From assembly GCF_041361465.1 (NCBI RefSeq), contig NZ_JBGKAC010000001.1, forward strand, positions 1,922,001 through 1,986,000: a stretch of DNA of 64,000 nucleotides, read 5' to 3'. The notes under the pieces were generated by a model, which was given only the letters and a program-made list of their open reading frames with translations, made no database searches and had not been told where the DNA came from. A program made the position numbers and the translations under genes. Positions 53,350 through 61,115 of the stretch are shown piece by piece (the stretch's first letter is position 1; each line of letters starts with the position of its first letter). This DNA comes from Halobaculum sp. MBLA0143 (GTDB taxonomy: Archaea > Halobacteriota > Halobacteria > Halobacteriales > Haloferacaceae).

Positions 53350-53949
53350 ATGGACTACGACGCGGTGGCGGCACACACGCCCGAGCGGGTCGACACCGCA
53401 CCGCGGCGGGCCGCCGTGTTGGCGCCGGTGTTCTGCCGCGACGGCGTCGCACACGTCGTGTTCACCCGTCGGGCGGACCACCTGGGTGAACACCCCGGGC
53501 AGATGAGCTTCCCCGGCGGCGGCGAGGAGCCCTCGGACCGCGACCTGACGGTGACGGCGCTCCGGGAGGCGGACGAGGAGATCGGCCTCCGGCCCGAGGA
53601 GGTGACCGTCGTCGGCCGGCTGGACGACATCGAGACCGTCTCCGAGTACGCCGTCAGCCCGTTCGTCGGCCGGGTGCCCGACCGAGCGTTCGTCCCCGAC
53701 GACGGCGAGGTCGCGGAGGTGGTCCCCCTGTCCGTGCCGGCGCTGACCGACCCCGACAACTACGAGTCCGAGCGTCGTCACCACCCGCGACACGGCGCCG
53801 TCAGGCTCCACTTCTTCCACGTCGACGGCTACACCGTCTGGGGGGCGACCGGCCGGATGCTCGTCCAACTGCTGGAGATCGCCACGGACTGGCGGGCGCC
53901 GGCGGAGGTGGACCGGGTCGTGGACGCGGACGCCGATCTGCCGAGCTAG
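53350..53949 (+). CDS. NUDIX CoA pyrophosphatase-like hydrolase
   Basis: 199 residues. RRADHLGEHPGQMSFPGGGEEPSD followed by the Nudix box LTVTALREADEEIGL matches the CoA/acyl-CoA diphosphatase subfamily (long insertion GQxSFPGG). C-terminal LHFFHVDGYTVWGATGRMLVQLLE also fits. Likely trims CoA or derivatives. Its end overlaps the convergent ABC permease gene by four bases. Confidence 0.92.
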   Translation: MDYDAVAAHTPERVDTAPRRAAVLAPVFCRDGVAHVVFTRRADHLGEHPGQMSFPGGGEEPSDRDLTVTALREADEEIGLRPEEVTVVGRLDDIETVSEYAVSPFVGRVPDRAFVPDDGEVAEVVPLSVPALTDPDNYESERRHHPRHGAVRLHFFHVDGYTVWGATGRMLVQLLEIATDWRAPAEVDRVVDADADLPS

Positions 53950-55502
53950 CGCCGGCGACCGACGGCGGCGACGGCCAACAGGACCGGCGCGGCCGCGAGG
54001 TAGGCGTACGGGACGCCCGCGGCGACCGTCGCCGGCCGGGCGCCCAGGAAGTCCAACGGCGCGACACCGTTCACCGGGCCGAGGTACCACGCGAGCAGCA
54101 GGACCGTCTCGAAGGCGCGCGGCCGGGCGGTCCAGACGCCGACGGCGACCGCGGCCGCCGGGAGGGCGACGGCGGCGCCGGCGAGCCCGATCACCGCGCC
54201 GGTCTCCCCGAGCGTCAGGAACCGTATCGCGGCGGGACCGACGACGACGGCGACGACGGCGACACCCGAGAGGAACGTCGGGACGAGCAGTCCGACGGGA
54301 GAGGCGGTCGTGAAGAGGAGCCGAGCGGTGTCGGCGCGGCGCTCCCGGCTCCCCAGCCCGGACAGCGCCGGCAGCGCCAGGAGCGTGCCGACGGGGACGA
54401 GCAACGATCGGACGGGACCGGCCGGGCCGACGAGCGAGCCGACCACGACGGCCGCGACCGCGCCGTACCACGCCCGGCGCCGTCGCAGCGCCATCCGGAC
54501 CTCCGCGAGCGTCGCCGCCAGGAGCCCGAATCGGCCGGTCTCGACGGTCGGCAGCGCGGCGACGGCGTCGTCGACGGCCGGGCGAGCGGCGTCGTCGGCG
54601 GCGGGCGGTTCGGCGGTCGTCCCCTCGCTCGCGTCACCGCCGAGCGTCGGCAGCGACAGCCCGCCGTCCGGGTCGAACCGGTCGAACGCAGCCCACGCGG
54701 CCGCCAGCAGCCCGCCGGCGACCGCGAACGTCGCCGCGCGGTCGAGCAACTGCGCCGGGGTCCAGGCGAGCCCGCTCCACTCGAAGGCCGTCGTCTCGCC
54801 GCCGGGCGGTCGGTAGGCGAACCCTTCGACCGGGCGCGTCACCGTCGGGTGTTGGGCGACGACGTCCGCGATCACGCTGCGCTGGATCAGCCCGAGCCCG
54901 GAGAGATCGAACGGGAGCGACCCCTGTGCGCCGGCGACGACGACCGCCAGGGTGCCGACGACGTACGCGGCCGTGCCGGCGGTGCCACGGAGCGGCCCGA
55001 CCGTCTCCGTGAGCACCGCCGCCGCGGCGACGACGGCCATCGCCGGCAGCGTGAGCAGAGCGAACGGCTCCCACAGCACGAGGAGGTCGAGGGGGCCGGT
55101 TCCGCCGAGGAGGAAGGCGGCGGTGGTCGCCCCGCCGAGCACGGCCGTGACGACGGCGAGCGCAGCGAACGCCGAGAGGAACTTCCCGAGGAGGTACGCG
55201 GCGTCGCCCAACGGCGAGGTCGCCAACAGGGTCGCAACCCCGGTGTCCCGGTCGTGGGTGACTCCGCCGCGGACGAGCGGGAACCCGACGACGACCAACA
55301 CCGCGGTGCCGAGCCCGCAGACGGCGCCGCCGTACCACGCCGCAGTGCCGGTGCCGGTGTAGGAGCCGGCGACGACGAGTTCCCCGTCGACGACGATCAG
55401 CTTCCCGAGGTACGCCGTGAGGAGGCCGGCGACGAGCAGCGTCGGCGAACGGGTGCGCCGCCGGAGGTCGGCGACCGCGACGGCCAGAGTCGCACGGAAC
55501 AC
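53946..55502 (-). CDS. ABC-2 type permease, fused two-half form
   Basis: 518 residues with ten to twelve hydrophobic helices. N-terminal half: ATLAVAVADLRRRTRSPTLLVAGLLTAYLGKLIV, GVTHDRDTGVATLLATSPLGDAAYLLGKFLSAF (ABC-2 loop). The second half (from VETGRFGLLAATLAEVRMALRRRRAWYGA) resembles a repeat of the first. GTG start overlaps the ATPase stop by one base. Substrate unknown; possibly a multidrug or lipid exporter. Confidence 0.87.
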   Translation of the reverse strand: MFRATLAVAVADLRRRTRSPTLLVAGLLTAYLGKLIVVDGELVVAGSYTGTGTAAWYGGAVCGLGTAVLVVVGFPLVRGGVTHDRDTGVATLLATSPLGDAAYLLGKFLSAFAALAVVTAVLGGATTAAFLLGGTGPLDLLVLWEPFALLTLPAMAVVAAAAVLTETVGPLRGTAGTAAYVVGTLAVVVAGAQGSLPFDLSGLGLIQRSVIADVVAQHPTVTRPVEGFAYRPPGGETTAFEWSGLAWTPAQLLDRAATFAVAGGLLAAAWAAFDRFDPDGGLSLPTLGGDASEGTTAEPPAADDAARPAVDDAVAALPTVETGRFGLLAATLAEVRMALRRRRAWYGAVAAVVVGSLVGPAGPVRSLLVPVGTLLALPALSGLGSRERRADTARLLFTTASPVGLLVPTFLSGVAVVAVVVGPAAIRFLTLGETGAVIGLAGAAVALPAAAVAVGVWTARPRAFETVLLLAWYLGPVNGVAPLDFLGARPATVAAGVPYAYLAAAPVLLAVAAVGRRR

Positions 55503-56380
55503 TACGGCGTCACCTCCACCGTCGTTCGGTCCGTCTCGACCTCGTGGAGGTACGCCTCCTCCAGCGTCGGCTCGACGGCCGTCGCCTCTCGGTCGGGTCG
55601 GTCGCCGACTACGCGGAGGTGGACGCCGTCACTCCGACGGGTCGTGCTCGCCACGGTGTGACTCGCCTTCACGTCGGCCACGTCCGCCTCGGGGACGACC
55701 ACCTCCCAGACCCGCCCTTCGACGGCCGCGAGCAGCTCCGTCGGCGTCGTGTGTGCGAGCAGTTCACCGTCGTCCAACAGGGCAATCTCGCCCGCAGTCG
55801 CCTCCACGTCCGGGACGATGTGCGTGGAGAGGACGACGATCCGGTCGCTGGCGAGCGCGGACAGGAGACTCCGGAACCGCGCCCGCTCGGTCGGGTCTAA
55901 GCCGACGGTGGGCTCGTCGACGATCAGGAGTTCGGGGTCGGACAACAGCGTCTGTGCGATCCCGACCCGCCGGCGCATCCCGCCGGAGAAGCCGCCGAGC
56001 CGGTCGTCGGCCGCGTCCGAGAGCCCGACGATCTCCAACAGCTCCTCGATCCGGTCGCCCGGGCTCGACACCCCCCGGACGGCCGCGAGGTACCGGAGGA
56101 ACTCCCGAGCGGTGAGGCTGGGGTACACCCCGAACTGCTGGGGGAGGTAGCCGACCGCCTCCCGGATCGCCCCCGGGGAGTCGATCACGTCCGTCCCGTT
56201 CCACCGCACGGTCCCCTCCGTGGGCTCCGTGAACGTCGTGACGATCTGCATCAGCGTGGACTTGCCCGCGCCGTTCGGGCCGAGGAGGCCGACGACACCC
56301 GGCCCCAACGTCAGGTCGACACCGCGGAGCGCCCAGGTGTCGCCGTAGCGCTTGCCGAGCCCGTCCAGTTCGAGTTTCAC
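55502..56380 (-). CDS. ABC-2 exporter ATPase
   Basis: About 292 residues from GTG 56380, which gives KLELDGLGKRYGDTWALRGVDL; the longer reading to 56422 is less likely. Walker A GPNGAGKST, Q-loop YLPQQFGVYPSLTA, signature FSGGMRRRVGIAQ, Walker B LLIVDEPTVGLDPTE, H-loop VVLSTHIVPDVEA. Partner of the fused permease. The 249-bp gap to 56629 carries its promoter and the promoter of the 45-residue ORF. Confidence 0.92.
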   Translation of the reverse strand: MKLELDGLGKRYGDTWALRGVDLTLGPGVVGLLGPNGAGKSTLMQIVTTFTEPTEGTVRWNGTDVIDSPGAIREAVGYLPQQFGVYPSLTAREFLRYLAAVRGVSSPGDRIEELLEIVGLSDAADDRLGGFSGGMRRRVGIAQTLLSDPELLIVDEPTVGLDPTERARFRSLLSALASDRIVVLSTHIVPDVEATAGEIALLDDGELLAHTTPTELLAAVEGRVWEVVVPEADVADVKASHTVASTTRRSDGVHLRVVGDRPDREATAVEPTLEEAYLHEVETDRTTVEVTP

Positions 56381-56594
56381 CGAGACCACCGCCGCGAACA
56401 GTCTGTCGGGGACACACCTCACGTCTCGGACAACGGAGTGAAGAAACTGTCTACTCGTGAAATTTGATAAGCACTACGTCACTGAATTGAGACACAGAAG
56501 GCTAGAAACGGCCGCATAGGAGCCGTTCGAACCGAGTTCTACAACTGCGTGAGAATTTCTAACAAGCGGGTCGTGTCGGACGGTATACAATAGA

Positions 56595-56603
56595 TTTAAT
56601 TTA
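56595..56603 (+). promoter_or_regulatory. TATA-like box of the 45-residue peptide gene
   Basis: tttaattta centred 31 bases before the ATG at 56630, predicting transcription about five bases upstream of the start. Confidence 0.6.
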
Positions 56604-56629
56604 CATCCACCGCACTTCACAGGTGTAGC

Positions 56630-56767
56630 ATGCAAGAAGCTACGCTCCACGACATCGAGACCCCGAGCGAAGTCGAGATGGCAGACCTGACCGAGATGGT
56701 GGGTCTGGAGATCAACGCCGAGTGGACGGCGGTCACCGAGCACTACGTCTACACCGGCAGCGACTGA
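56630..56767 (+). CDS. 45-residue peptide, candidate precursor of an exported product
   Basis: Encodes MQEATLHDIETPSEVEMADL, then TEMVGLEINAEWTAV and TEHYVYTGSD, ending in TGA. Acidic first half without a signal peptide, aromatic/Thr-rich C-terminal half with Trp, His and two Tyr, no Cys. It has its own TATA-like box and is followed by a hairpin with a T-run, so it makes a short separate transcript. Downstream are an all-helical protein of unknown function and an ABC-2 exporter. The plan (leader-like acidic N-terminus, small core, dedicated enzyme candidate, exporter) resembles ribosomally made modified peptides, but no known modification enzyme family is evident, so the role is inference. 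Confidence 0.65.
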   Translation: MQEATLHDIETPSEVEMADLTEMVGLEINAEWTAVTEHYVYTGSD

Positions 56768-56793
56768 TCGGTGTCGGTTCCACTCGTCGACCA

Positions 56794-56828
56794 CCGCCGT
56801 CACGGGACGGCGGCACCCAATTTTGTTT
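56794..56828 (+). terminator. hairpin plus T-run after the peptide gene
   Basis: CCGCCGTC (56794-56801) and GACGGCGG (56806-56813) form an eight-base-pair stem with a four-base loop, followed by cacccaattttgttt. Archaeal termination depends mainly on the T-rich tract; both elements are present 27-60 bases after the stop codon. Confidence 0.6.
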
Positions 56829-56864
56829 GCGTCGCCTAACTGTATCAGTTGTGCCATCCAAAGA

Positions 56865-56871
56865 TTTATAT
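56865..56871 (+). promoter_or_regulatory. TATA-like box of the DUF6895-like/ABC operon
   Basis: tttatat lies about 70 bases before the ATG at 56938; with initiation near 56895 this gives a roughly 45-base leader that ends with gaggggtaag, a plausible ribosome-binding site. It separates this operon from the peptide transcript. Confidence 0.55.
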
Positions 56872-56937
56872 CGAGACTTGATAATTGTGTAGTGTGACAC
56901 GTCAGACAGCCCGGAGGCGGTCGACCGAGGGGTAAGA

Positions 56938-58248
56938 ATGGCCGACAGGAGACACCAACTCACGGAGCAGGCGGCGCGGCTGACGACGGCAAACGACGAG
57001 TGGCTCGCGGACCACACCCCGGCGTTCGACCCGTTGGGCTGGACGGACACGGACGCCATCGAGTACCGTCGGAAGGCGTTCTCCGAGCTGGCGCTGTACG
57101 TGTACGTCGCCGACTGTCTCTCGCCGGCGGCGCCCGAGCCGTTGACCGCGGTCGTCGACGAGACGCTGCAACGGGAGGCGTACGTCGACCTGTTGCGGCG
57201 CGACCCGACGAAGCTGCTCCGGTACGCCCCGGCGCTGACGGTCGGGCTGGCGCGCGACACGGTCGGCGAGTCCGTCCGCGAGGCGGTGACGACGGCGGTG
57301 ACACACCCGGCGGTGACCGGGACGGAGTGGCTGGCGAACCGGAGACTCGACGTCGCGCGGCTGGCGGCGTTGGCCGGCCGGGAGCCACAGGTCGACCCGG
57401 CGGCCGTGCTCGCCCGGTCGGCGGTCGCCGGCGACCCGGTGCCGATCCGTGGGTCCCGGATGGATGCGTACGCGCTCACACACGCGATTCTGTTCGCCAC
57501 CGACTTCGGGACGGAGCGCCAGCCCCTCGGCAATCTGGCAGCCCACGACTTCCAGACTGCACTGGACGGCTACCTCCTGCGGTTCGTCGCGGACGGCCAC
57601 ACGGATGTGGCCGCGGAACTCGTCTTGTGTGGCGTCGTCACCGGCCAGGTGTCGCCGGCGCTCGTCGAGTGGACGCTGAACTGGCTCCACGAGGAGACGA
57701 CGGAGTTGGGCCACACCCCCGGCCCCGAGGTCGTGACGGCGCCGCCGACGCTCACCGGCCCGACCCCGGACGACGACGACCCGGAGTCGTTCGACCCGGA
57801 GTCCGTCGGGCTCCCGTCGACGTGGCTTGAGGACTACCACACGGCGCTCGTCGGGGGAATGTTGGGGCGTGTCGTCAGCCACCACGGCGACCGACTGGAC
57901 TGGGAGGGTGCAGCCACGGCCGACCCGGAGGCGTTGTCGGCACTCGGGGCGGCGCTGGAGGCGTTCGCGGACTACGAACTCCAGGACGGCGCCGAGCGGC
58001 TCGTCGAACTGTCCGACCACACGCTCCCGACATCGCTGACCCCGGTCGTCGAGCGGGTGGAGGCGTTCCTCCGGGAGCAACGGGACGACGACGGGCAGTT
58101 CGGCTACTGGACGGACGAGCGGCACATGTTCGAGCTGGCCGGCCACGACGCGGCGGCGTTCGAGGCCGGGCCGCTCGCGCGGACGACCGCCGCCTGCGAG
58201 GACGGTCTCGTGGCGGTCACGGAGATCACGGAGACACACGACACATGA
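56938..58248 (+). CDS. all-helical protein, DUF6895-like, in a peptide/ABC locus
   Basis: 436 residues, soluble, almost entirely alpha-helical with short loops. Notable segments: RKAFSELALYVYVADCL near 45-61, RMDAYALTHAILFATDFG at 174-191 (the HT...DFG pattern I associate with DUF6895), LNWLHEETTELGH, TWLEDYHTALVGGMLGRV, and EQRDDDGQFGYW near 380-390, which recalls the QxxDGxWG repeats of alpha/alpha-toroid enzymes. Fold and function are inferred; it could modify, chaperone or sense the adjacent peptide. ATG follows a gaggggt site. Stop overlaps the ABC ATPase start by four bases, so it is translationally coupled to the exporter. Confidence 0.75.
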   Translation: MADRRHQLTEQAARLTTANDEWLADHTPAFDPLGWTDTDAIEYRRKAFSELALYVYVADCLSPAAPEPLTAVVDETLQREAYVDLLRRDPTKLLRYAPALTVGLARDTVGESVREAVTTAVTHPAVTGTEWLANRRLDVARLAALAGREPQVDPAAVLARSAVAGDPVPIRGSRMDAYALTHAILFATDFGTERQPLGNLAAHDFQTALDGYLLRFVADGHTDVAAELVLCGVVTGQVSPALVEWTLNWLHEETTELGHTPGPEVVTAPPTLTGPTPDDDDPESFDPESVGLPSTWLEDYHTALVGGMLGRVVSHHGDRLDWEGAATADPEALSALGAALEAFADYELQDGAERLVELSDHTLPTSLTPVVERVEAFLREQRDDDGQFGYWTDERHMFELAGHDAAAFEAGPLARTTAACEDGLVAVTEITETHDT

Positions 58249-59249
58249 ACGAGACGACACCACGACCGGCCGTCGACGCCGACGAGCCGGCGGTCCGGGT
58301 GCGAGACGTATCGAAGACGTACGGCGGCGAGGACGGCGTCACGGCGGTCGACGGCGTCTCGCTGACCGTCGAACGAGGGAGCGTCGTCGGGCTCCTCGGC
58401 CCGAACGGCGCCGGCAAGACGACGCTGATGAAGTCGATCCTCGGCGTCGTCGTCCCGGACGAGGGGACGGTGGAGCTGTTCGGCCAGGACGGCGCGTCGC
58501 TCGGACGGGACCGCTACCGCTACGTCAGCGCGATGCTGGAGGGCGCGCGCAATATCTACTGGCGGATGAGTCTGCGGGAGAACGTCCGCTACTTCACCGG
58601 ACTCCAGGGGATCGCTCCCGGCTCCGTCCGCGAGGCGAACACGGAGCTGATCTCCCGGCTGGGGATGTCCGAGAAGTTAGACGAGCCGGTCAAGGAGTTC
58701 TCTCGCGGCCAGAAACAACGCGCCTCGCTGGCGTGTGTGCTCGCACAGCGCACGCCGATCACGTTCCTAGACGAGCCGACACTCGGGCTGGACGTACAGG
58801 CCGGGCGAGCGCTCCAACGGGAACTGCGAGACCTCGCGTCCGACGAGGACCGGACGGTGTTGCTGTCCAGCCACGACATGGACGTGGTCGAAGAGCTGTG
58901 TGACCGGGTGATCGTGTTGGACGACGGCTCCGTGATCGCGGCCGACACCGTCGCGGCGCTGACGGACGTGTTCGACAGCCAGACGTACGAACTCGCGTTG
59001 TCGGGACTGCCCGAGCGGGACGACCGGCGCGCGCTGGCAGATCGGTTCGAGTCCGTCTCCTGGGACGGCGAGGACGCCAGAGCCACCGTCACCGTCGCCT
59101 CCGGCGAGCGGCTGTACGATCTGATGGACGCGCTGCGCGAGGCGGACGTGGTCGTCGAGTCGATGAACACCGCGGAACGCGACTTGGAGGCGGCGTTCGT
59201 CCAAGTGACGAGCGACACCGACCAGAAGGAGGTGACGGAGGCAGTATGA
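58245..59249 (+). CDS. ABC-2 exporter ATPase of the peptide locus
   Basis: 334 residues. Walker A GPNGAGKTT, Q-loop SAMLEGARNIYWRMSLREN, signature FSRGQKQRASLA (SRGQK variant), Walker B ITFLDEPTLGLDVQAG, H-loop VLLSSHDMDVVEE, and a long C-terminal domain (ERDLEAAFVQVTSD). Coupled by four-base overlaps to the helical protein upstream and the permease downstream, which implies a joint complex or pathway. Confidence 0.93.
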   Translation: MNETTPRPAVDADEPAVRVRDVSKTYGGEDGVTAVDGVSLTVERGSVVGLLGPNGAGKTTLMKSILGVVVPDEGTVELFGQDGASLGRDRYRYVSAMLEGARNIYWRMSLRENVRYFTGLQGIAPGSVREANTELISRLGMSEKLDEPVKEFSRGQKQRASLACVLAQRTPITFLDEPTLGLDVQAGRALQRELRDLASDEDRTVLLSSHDMDVVEELCDRVIVLDDGSVIAADTVAALTDVFDSQTYELALSGLPERDDRRALADRFESVSWDGEDARATVTVASGERLYDLMDALREADVVVESMNTAERDLEAAFVQVTSDTDQKEVTEAV

Positions 59250-60019
59250 ACGGCTCAGAGTACGTCGCGTTCCTGCGGGTGACAGCCGAAAAACGGGTCG
59301 CACTGCTGCGTCGGTACTTCCTCAACTCCGTGATGCAGGTGGTGACGTTCCTCCTGATGTTCGCGTTGTTGTTCTTCGGCGGACAGCAGTTCGCGCCGAC
59401 CGTCGTGGAAGACTCGCTCGGCGGGCTGATCGTCGGGTTCTTCGTCTGGACGATGGCGGCACAGGCGTACAACCGGGTGTCGAAGCAGGTGGAGACGGAG
59501 GCGAAGTGGGGCACGCTCGAACAGCTGTACATGTCGCCGTTCGGGATCGAACGAGTCGTGTTCGCCAACAGTCTGTTCTTCATCACCGGCAGTCTCGGCT
59601 TCGGGATGATCGTCTTGGGGCTGATGGTGGCAATCAGCGACACGGCGCTGTCGATCCCGTTGGGGGTGGTGCCGCTGGGGCTGGCGACCATCTTCCCGGT
59701 GATCGGGCTGGGGCTCGCGCTCGGCGGGCTGTCGCTGATCTACAAGAAGATCGGCGCGATCACGGGGCTAATGCAGTTGTTCCTCGTCGGGTTCATCTCG
59801 TTGCCGTTGGACGCCAACCCCGTGGTCGCGGCGCTGCCGCTGACCGTCGGCACCCGGATGCTGGAGACGACGATGCGGGCCGGCACGGTGACGGCGGTGT
59901 CGCCGACGATGGCGGGGTTGTTGGCCGCCAAGCTCGTCGTCTACGTCGCGCTCGGGTTCGGCGGTCTCCACTATCTCCAGAAGGTCGCGCGCCAGCGGGG
60001 CGTGCTCGGGCAGTACTGA
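59246..60019 (+). CDS. ABC-2 permease of the peptide locus
   Basis: 257 residues, six hydrophobic helices (MQVVTFLLMFALLFFGG, LIVGFFVWTMAAQAY, FFITGSLGFGMIVLGLMVAI, GLATIFPVIGLGLALGGLSL, LAAKLVVYVALGFGGLHYL) and the ABC-2 cytoplasmic motif ETEAKWGTLEQLYMSPFGIERVVFANSLF. Forms the channel for the ATPase; export of the small peptide or its product is inferred from gene order. Confidence 0.9.
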   Translation: MNGSEYVAFLRVTAEKRVALLRRYFLNSVMQVVTFLLMFALLFFGGQQFAPTVVEDSLGGLIVGFFVWTMAAQAYNRVSKQVETEAKWGTLEQLYMSPFGIERVVFANSLFFITGSLGFGMIVLGLMVAISDTALSIPLGVVPLGLATIFPVIGLGLALGGLSLIYKKIGAITGLMQLFLVGFISLPLDANPVVAALPLTVGTRMLETTMRAGTVTAVSPTMAGLLAAKLVVYVALGFGGLHYLQKVARQRGVLGQY

Positions 60020-60230: not shown

Positions 60231-61115
60231 GTGCCAGCGACGGCGACGAACACGGACGTGCAGACAGTTGCGGACACGGACGCGAACACGGACACAGACG
60301 CGACGGGGTCAGACGCAGATATGAGTACGACACGTACGCGCGAGGGTGACGGCATCGAGACGACGGGACTGGACGGCGTCGTGTTCAAGCCGACGGAGAC
60401 GACAGCGGCTGCGATCCGGCGGCTCCCGTTCGAGTTGGTGTGTGTCGACTACGAGGGGCGGTCGGCGCTGCCGTCGGCGGAGACGCTCTCGTCGCTGGCG
60501 GCCGACCGGACGCTGCGGGTGACGACCCCGGTGCGGGCCGACGGGTTCGACCCGTTGGGTGACGACGAACTGTCGACGCGGCTGCCGGAGGGGGCCGGTC
60601 GGGTGCTCGTCGCCGGTCACGGGGCGTACCTGACGGAAACGGAGCAGTCGCGGGCCGTCGCGCCGCGACTCGGCGCGGCCGTCGAACGGACGAACGACCC
60701 GTGGGTCGGCACGGAGAGTGTCGAGCGGGTGGCGCTGGCGGCCGGGGGCGTCCAGTACGAACTGCTGTCCCGCGGGACGGTCGACGCGATCGAGGGGCTG
60801 CGGGCCGCCGGCTACGACGGCGACGTGGCGGTGTACGCGCCGACGGTGCCGACGGCAGACGAGGACGCGATCCTGGACGCCGTCGGCGCGTACGCGGCAC
60901 GGCGGGCACCGGTGCGGCGGGCGCTGCCGGACGACGCCGCCACGGACGCGACCGCGACCGGGCGAGCCAGGGAGGTGTTGGAGGCGGCCGTCAGAGACTA
61001 CGCGCTCGTCGGCTCGCACGCGACGATCCGCGAACGGGTGGACGAGTTGAAGACGGCCGGCGCGGATCTCGTGGTCGGCTACCCGGCGGCGGGCGTGGAG
61101 ACGTTCACCCGCTGA
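60231..61115 (+). CDS. conserved haloarchaeal TIM-barrel-like protein, unknown function (DUF7388-like)
   Basis: 294 residues from GTG 60231; ATG 60321 would remove a Thr/Asp low-complexity tail of 30 residues and may be the true start. Body: TGLDGVVFKPTET, LPFELVCVDYEGRSALPS, LRVTTPVRADGFDPLGD, NDPWVGTESVERVALAAGGVQYELLS, and a C-terminus ALVGSHATIRERVDELKTAGADLVVGYPA that resembles the last barrel element of F420-dependent luciferase-like enzymes. I recall a haloarchaeal family of this type (DUF7388); its reaction is unknown. Confidence 0.7.
   Translation: MPATATNTDVQTVADTDANTDTDATGSDADMSTTRTREGDGIETTGLDGVVFKPTETTAAAIRRLPFELVCVDYEGRSALPSAETLSSLAADRTLRVTTPVRADGFDPLGDDELSTRLPEGAGRVLVAGHGAYLTETEQSRAVAPRLGAAVERTNDPWVGTESVERVALAAGGVQYELLSRGTVDAIEGLRAAGYDGDVAVYAPTVPTADEDAILDAVGAYAARRAPVRRALPDDAATDATATGRAREVLEAAVRDYALVGSHATIRERVDELKTAGADLVVGYPAAGVETFTR

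Follow-up and report, generated by a model that had tools for sequence, protein, structure and literature searches.

The locus described here raises the question of whether a 45-codon open reading frame (ORF) of Halobaculum sp. MBLA0143, followed by genes for a helical DUF6895 protein and an ATP-binding cassette (ABC) transporter, encodes the precursor of a modified peptide, and which modification that would be. It lies in a 64-kb stretch of contig NZ_JBGKAC010000001.1, referred to below as the window. Four plus-strand genes, all found where an earlier note on this DNA had placed them, form its core: a candidate precursor peptide gene (56630..56767; 45 aa, MQEATLHDIETPSEVEMADLTEMVGLEINAEWTAVTEHYVYTGSD), identified by conservation, a family profile, a leader motif and third-position GC content (GC3); the DUF6895 gene (56938..58248), whose 436-aa product is assigned by Pfam and a structural model to an all-helical toroid and would be a peptide C-alpha epimerase; an ABC-2 exporter ATPase gene (58245..59249); and a gene for an ABC-2 type permease of 257 aa (59246..60019). 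The DUF6895 and ATPase genes overlap by 4 nt, as do the ATPase and permease genes.

There is good support for a peptide-modification role of this gene cluster, and we have high confidence in it. We further propose that it is probably an epipeptide-like cluster for a ribosomally synthesised and post-translationally modified peptide (RiPP), with epimerisation of the window peptide by the DUF6895 protein as the most likely chemistry, judged from what is reported for its family. A broader proposal, to which we give somewhat less than an even chance, is that the locus represents an archaeal epipeptide class in which D-residues introduced by a stand-alone toroid epimerase, DUF6895, are the sole modification, with no radical S-adenosylmethionine (SAM) enzyme or other RiPP machinery; the enzyme would be modular, and borrowed by archaeal lanthipeptide clusters as well.

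The small ORF as a gene

On comparative evidence, 56630-56767 is a real 45-codon gene. The closest relative found, at locus L021 of a Haloferacaceae metagenome-assembled genome, encodes the peptide MQEATLNDVENPSGIEMGDLTEMVGLEINAEWTVYTDHHVYTGSD at the same place, beside a DUF6895 protein 61% identical to that of the window over the 231 residues present. DNA identity between the two loci is 86% inside the ORF, with no indels, and 42-43% in the flanks. When a profile built from other genera only was applied to the 391 small ORFs of the window, the 45-codon ORF ranked first (E 0.0047, 11.8 bits), and it outscored all 1967 scored composition shuffles, narrowly, the best of these reaching 11.7 bits. 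Because of this difference between ORF and flanks, together with the first rank among 391 ORFs, we take the ORF to be more than chance. Furthermore, the leader motif [M/L]x[D/N/E]LT[E/A] occurs once in the 64 kb of the window. The peptide has no Pfam match; its predicted organization is a leader of residues ~1-31 carrying EMADLTE and a core of residues ~32-45.

The opposite view, that the ORF is fortuitous and the operon a plain ABC transporter with a DUF6895 accessory protein, can appeal to the commonness of short ORFs, to a profile E value that is only 0.0047 among 391 candidates, and to a ratio of non-synonymous to synonymous change in the window/L021 peptide pair (dN/dS 0.14/0.22) that is not low, with too few changes to be useful. 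Against it stand the identity of 86% inside versus 42% outside without indels, a GC3 of 0.85, and the recurrence of homologous small ORFs, in tandem copies, at this position in other genera; this view is already largely refuted and we consider it very improbable.

A precursor family beside DUF6895 genes

Motif-bearing small ORFs lie directly upstream of DUF6895 in seven haloarchaeal loci, including that of the window, that are free of a LanC-like cyclase; in four of these they are in tandem. Three such ORFs are found in Halorussus amylolyticus (L022), four in Natrinema salsiterrestre (L024/L046), three in HArc-gm2 (L023), two in another genome of the genus Halorussus (L044) and one at the second locus of the own genome, that of strain MBLA0143 (L015). 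Apart from L021, the ORFs of the other stand-alone loci are shorter and more divergent than the window ORF and often tandem, and the C-terminal cores (HYVYTGSD, SWALISFD, SVALISL, IAWITW) are short, with V, I, Y and W abundant. The earlier note had named beforehand, as its refutation test, the lack of a conserved small ORF next to homologues; such an ORF was present at all LanC-free haloarchaeal loci checked, the one exception being G062 (L020), which has no precursor nearby and whose only candidate is 3.7 kb away.

The co-location is strict. A motif scan of 281 kb returned 15 ORFs, 14 of them upstream of a DUF6895 gene at ~1 kb or less and the last, that of L020, 3.7 kb off. The precursor profile that ranked the window ORF first, which contains no own-genome sequence, matched six of the 392 genomes of the order that were searched, five of them at DUF6895 loci and the sixth weakly, inside a 429-aa frame, where it is spurious. 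The second own-genome locus (L015) was found independently by this profile at E 0.008. The precursor profile A3 gave no third match site in the own genome. DUF6895 itself is present in 10 of the 392 genomes, in two of them as short pieces only, and no DUF6895 relatives were found on viral contigs and plasmids.

Two observations concern L020 and the bacterial relatives. L020 carries a 28-aa ORF, MENISDLTDIAAAESDEDDCGCLIIVDE, preceded by a ribosome-binding-like GGAGGTGA. In Pseudomonadota (Shewanella, Paraglaciecola), DUF6895 genes occur as divergent pairs, and in Shewanella salipaludis (L027:5333-6300) three near-identical tandem 72-aa ORFs (KAIGDLTAAV) and a fourth, related ORF of 83 aa sit beside two divergent DUF6895 genes; these are possible bacterial precursors.

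Fold and invariant residues of the DUF6895 protein

The 436-residue protein matches Pfam DUF6895 (PF21836) over residues 21-309 (2.7e-34, 119.3 bits against a cut-off of 23.8), and Pfam finds no radical SAM domain in it. The earlier suggestion of a new modification or maturation factor is supported, with the amendment that the family is not wholly uncharacterised: the title of a 2026 paper (Shi et al., ACS Catal. 2026, 16, 1757), as cited in PMC13352647, names a DUF6895 protein a lasso-peptide epimerase.

The AlphaFold2 model, made from an 11-sequence alignment, is helical as had been predicted (pLDDT, the predicted local distance difference score, 88.1; pTM, the predicted template modelling score, 0.89). 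A Foldseek search against the PDB gave no match below E 0.001, its armadillo/importin folds being non-significant, and a sequence search of the PDB returned no DUF6895 relative. The fold assignment comes from a second look with VIA-align, a comparison in which helical models can reach high Z by chance: the first rank went to squalene-hopene cyclase 8pak (Z 17.7; 264 residues aligned at 3.5 A) and further class II terpene cyclases, followed by glycoside hydrolase families 88 and 105 (GH88/GH105). Class II terpene cyclases and GH88/GH105 are (alpha/alpha) toroids. The model thus points to an (alpha/alpha)6 toroid, a good assignment though not a certain one, and the resemblance to toroid enzymes pointed out earlier is borne out by the predicted fold. 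The two segments noticed at that time, HT...DFG (residues 181-191) and Q381..DGQFGYW, were also confirmed and are conserved for the most part.

Fifteen positions do not vary among the 14 archaeal and Pseudomonadota members compared: K46, F48, E50, H182, D223, E227, W296, Y300, H301, G337, Y346, L348, F377, G389 and D393. Those of them that are polar and lie within the toroid fall on every second model helix (38-60, 174-187, 222-235, 294-319), a placement on even-numbered, probably inner helices that would match the active site expected of a toroid. The two invariant histidines would suit two-base epimerisation.

These residues bear on whether DUF6895 is an enzyme at all. It could be a leader-binding chaperone, a maturation factor or an immunity factor, with the ABC pump exporting the peptide unmodified, as a haloarchaeal bacteriocin or a signal; many helical toroid and repeat proteins bind peptides, as the non-significant armadillo/importin matches recall, and the locus holds no second modifying enzyme. 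However, nearly all the invariant charged and histidine residues lie on alternate, probably inner, helices, which suggests an active site, and the family accompanies LanM/LanC elsewhere and, by the title cited above, a lasso pathway. A non-enzymatic role therefore seems improbable to us.

Genomic contexts of the family

Beside the stand-alone loci, DUF6895 adjoins a split class II lanthipeptide synthetase, with a DUF4135 dehydratase and a LanC-like cyclase encoded by separate genes, at L016 (own genome), L019/L028 (Halopiger), L025, L043 and L045. The precursors at these loci contain Cys and have a different leader type. Association with split LanM in five loci provides an independent RiPP context for the family. 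In the tree of DUF6895, LanM-associated and stand-alone members are interspersed, and well supported branches force at least two changes of context; DUF6895 therefore behaves as a modular tailoring enzyme. At L016, L019, L025, L043 and L045, a Spo0M-like gene is present in all five, and relatives of the first ABC pair (58245..60019 in the window) lie near four. A further arrangement is seen in Natrinema salsiterrestre (L046:4298-6304), where a LanM-type dehydratase (DUF4135) without LanC nearby sits beside DUF6895 and four Cys-free tandem precursors; judged from its gene content, this locus may make dehydrated, uncyclised and possibly epimerised peptides.

S9 peptidases recur near LanC-free DUF6895 loci (L015, L022, L046, L020), with none beside the window locus; where present, they may remove the leader. 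At L020, a gene for a Pab87-like CubicO peptidase (L020:9641-11050) also stands beside DUF6895, together with the S9 peptidase. Pab87 degrades peptides containing D-amino acids (PMC2651629). We rejected this neighbour as proof of D-residues, since it is a single instance of a fairly widespread domain.

The contexts also leave some room for a RiPP cluster in which DUF6895 performs another modification, such as dehydration, cyclisation or prenyl-type chemistry. Structurally, the model comes closest to class II terpene cyclases and GH88/GH105 hydrolases rather than to any known epimerase; chemistry could differ between the interspersed LanM-associated and stand-alone copies; and in Natrinema DUF6895 is found beside a LanM dehydratase that lacks LanC. 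On the other side, a DUF6895 epimerase has, again by a title, been reported, and the catalytic-type residues are common to all 14 full members. Prenyl-type chemistry in particular is disfavoured, as the locus has no prenyl donor enzyme and the only DDDD of the protein belongs to a variable loop that aligns poorly with relatives and borders or overlaps a stretch of pLDDT under 50; the conserved DxDD of class II terpene cyclases was not found in the DUF6895 alignments. We regard another chemistry as unlikely, yet as the most serious competitor to epimerisation.

Comparison with known systems and a proposed pathway

The claim that the locus lacks any known lanthipeptide, sactipeptide or similar enzyme was upheld: no other recognised RiPP enzyme is encoded there. 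A lanthipeptide cluster was rejected, with no LanM or LanC at the locus and no Cys in the 45-aa peptide. A lasso peptide cluster was likewise rejected; Transglut_core3 has a single, weak match in the own genome, at a distance of 1.3 Mb, the nearest Asn_synthase match is ~77 kb away, and no lasso cyclase-type match was found within 70 kb of the locus.

Epipeptides offer the closest analogy. In the yydFGHIJ operon of Bacillus subtilis, YydG inverts Val36 and Ile44 of YydF (PMC5808125, PMC7026026), and the ABC transporter has been proposed to serve self-protection rather than export. Both systems combine a short precursor with hydrophobic beta-branched core residues, a sole epimerase (in the window a predicted one) and an ABC ATPase with its permease. 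They differ in that YydG is a radical SAM enzyme, whereas DUF6895 is an unrelated helical toroid, and in that the epipeptide systems are bacterial and include the protease YydH, whereas the window locus is archaeal and no YydH-like protease was found in it.

The lasso-peptide epimerase MslH has a calcineurin-like fold. As described in PMC10406935, MslH acts on the lasso peptide MS-271 and is a metal-dependent acid/base epimerase; acid/base C-alpha epimerisation near the C-terminus of a ribosomal peptide is the analogy we propose; the fold of MslH sets it apart from the helical toroid modelled for DUF6895. The enzyme named in the title of Shi et al. belongs to the same Pfam family as the window protein but is there assigned a lasso substrate; the window locus has no lasso protease or cyclase gene, and its precursor carries a DLTE leader motif. 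Archaeal class II lanthipeptides (PMC10105419, PMC12144867) are likewise haloarchaeal RiPPs, and some of the haloarchaeal LanM clusters described above carry DUF6895 beside split LanM/LanC, unlike the window locus with its lack of LanM, LanC and peptide Cys. Neither 'epimer' nor 'DUF' was found in the main text of these two papers.

For the window member we infer epimerisation and the following pathway. A dedicated promoter would drive expression of the short precursor, with its EMADLTE leader motif and a hydrophobic/aromatic core ending in HYVYTGSD. The leader would be recognised by the DUF6895 toroid, which would invert the C-alpha of one or more core residues, probably by acid/base chemistry involving, for example, H182, H301, E50 and E227. 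Trimming of the product, which may be bioactive, would probably fall to a protease whose gene lies outside the locus. The adjacent ABC-2 transporter would export the product, and the divergent second one would possibly confer self-protection. As the yyd transporter was proposed to act in self-protection, the adjacent transporter may serve either role.

Several points weigh against this pathway. The score of the window peptide alone against the family profile is modest (11.8 bits), and the peptide was missed at E 0.01 in the search of 392 genomes, in which the only own-genome match was the second locus. The family link to the enzyme of Shi et al. is taken from that title, and identity of the window protein to the Pseudomonadota members is only 20-26%. 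The window locus contains no protease. The Pab87-type gene at L020 is a single post hoc case, of a domain present in 49 of 243 genomes (~20% of the order). Finally, both ABC families of the locus have several paralogues elsewhere in the own genome.

If the epimerase reading is correct, the precursor motif and one enzyme give a handle for finding epimerised haloarchaeal peptides, the activity of the newly recognised epimerase family extends beyond lasso peptides, and a small two-gene system becomes available for the study of peptide epimerisation. The pairing of small genes with DUF6895 in haloarchaea may mark a class of archaeal modified peptides that has gone unrecognised. According to a paper of 2009, no peptide containing D-amino acids had ever been observed in archaea (PMC2651629), and we found no mention of an epimerase in the archaeal RiPP literature that could be searched. 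What is new here is the stand-alone DUF6895 RiPP system in archaea; an epimerase of the family has, by the title of Shi et al., already been reported for lasso peptides.

The two ABC transporters

The ATPase at 58245..59249 (ABC_tran, PF00005, at 1.1e-28) is TIGR01188-like, below the cut-off, and related ATPases occur at other DUF6895 loci. Its permease has no Pfam match of its own; it is 38% identical over its full length to the L044 permease, itself a PF12698 match just under the cut-off, and has relatives at L016, L019, L022, L025, L044 and L045.

On the minus strand lie a second, divergent ABC ATPase (55502..56422; PF00005 5.9e-32), which would serve immunity or a second export pump, and its 518-aa permease partner (53946..55502), recognised by its likeness to L021 and a weak ABC-2 membrane similarity. 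The pair keeps its position in L021 (ATPase 79%, permease 55% identity). Relatives of the second ATPase are found near DUF6895 at L016, L022, L023, L025, L046 and L048, and those of the second permease at L023 and L046 by direct comparison and at L016, L022, L025 and L048 by clustering. The second-permease family has four copies in the own genome, and one ABC paralogue locus there (C1:1331000-1349000, L070) has no DUF6895 relative. Because of the paralogues of both ABC families, the second transporter is assigned to the cluster as probable, not certain. The extent given by the earlier note thus stands for the four-gene unit but probably falls short on the minus-strand side.

Other features of the locus and of DUF6895 genes

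The promoter proposed for the peptide gene was found by consensus only, as a TATA-like element, TTTAATTT (56594..56603, plus strand), ~31 nt 5' of the ATG; TTTAA is kept at the matching offset in L021. A second plus-strand TATA-like element, GATTTATATC (56864..56871), likewise by consensus only, precedes DUF6895, with GATTTAT common to L021. Between the two genes, a weak candidate feature, an 8-bp perfect stem-loop followed by a T-rich stretch (56794..56813, plus strand), folds both in the window and in L021, with one compensatory pair change; its folding energy in the window is no better than that of shuffles (z 0.23). The scan called no intrinsic terminator after the peptide gene, and that candidate was rejected; the stem-loop is possibly an attenuator or an mRNA stabiliser.

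Further genes around the locus encode ABC components, a DUF7388 protein, prefoldin, an SRP54-type GTPase and GatB. The DUF7388 family gene (PF24114, 1.1e-115) lies just downstream at 60231-61115 and is probably unrelated to the cluster. Elsewhere, DUF6895 remnants were seen as a C-terminal piece alone beside an ftsY-like gene (L047:7640-8149) and as a 42-residue piece (L048), and at L045:7486-8834 the DUF6895 gene is split into two overlapping frames.

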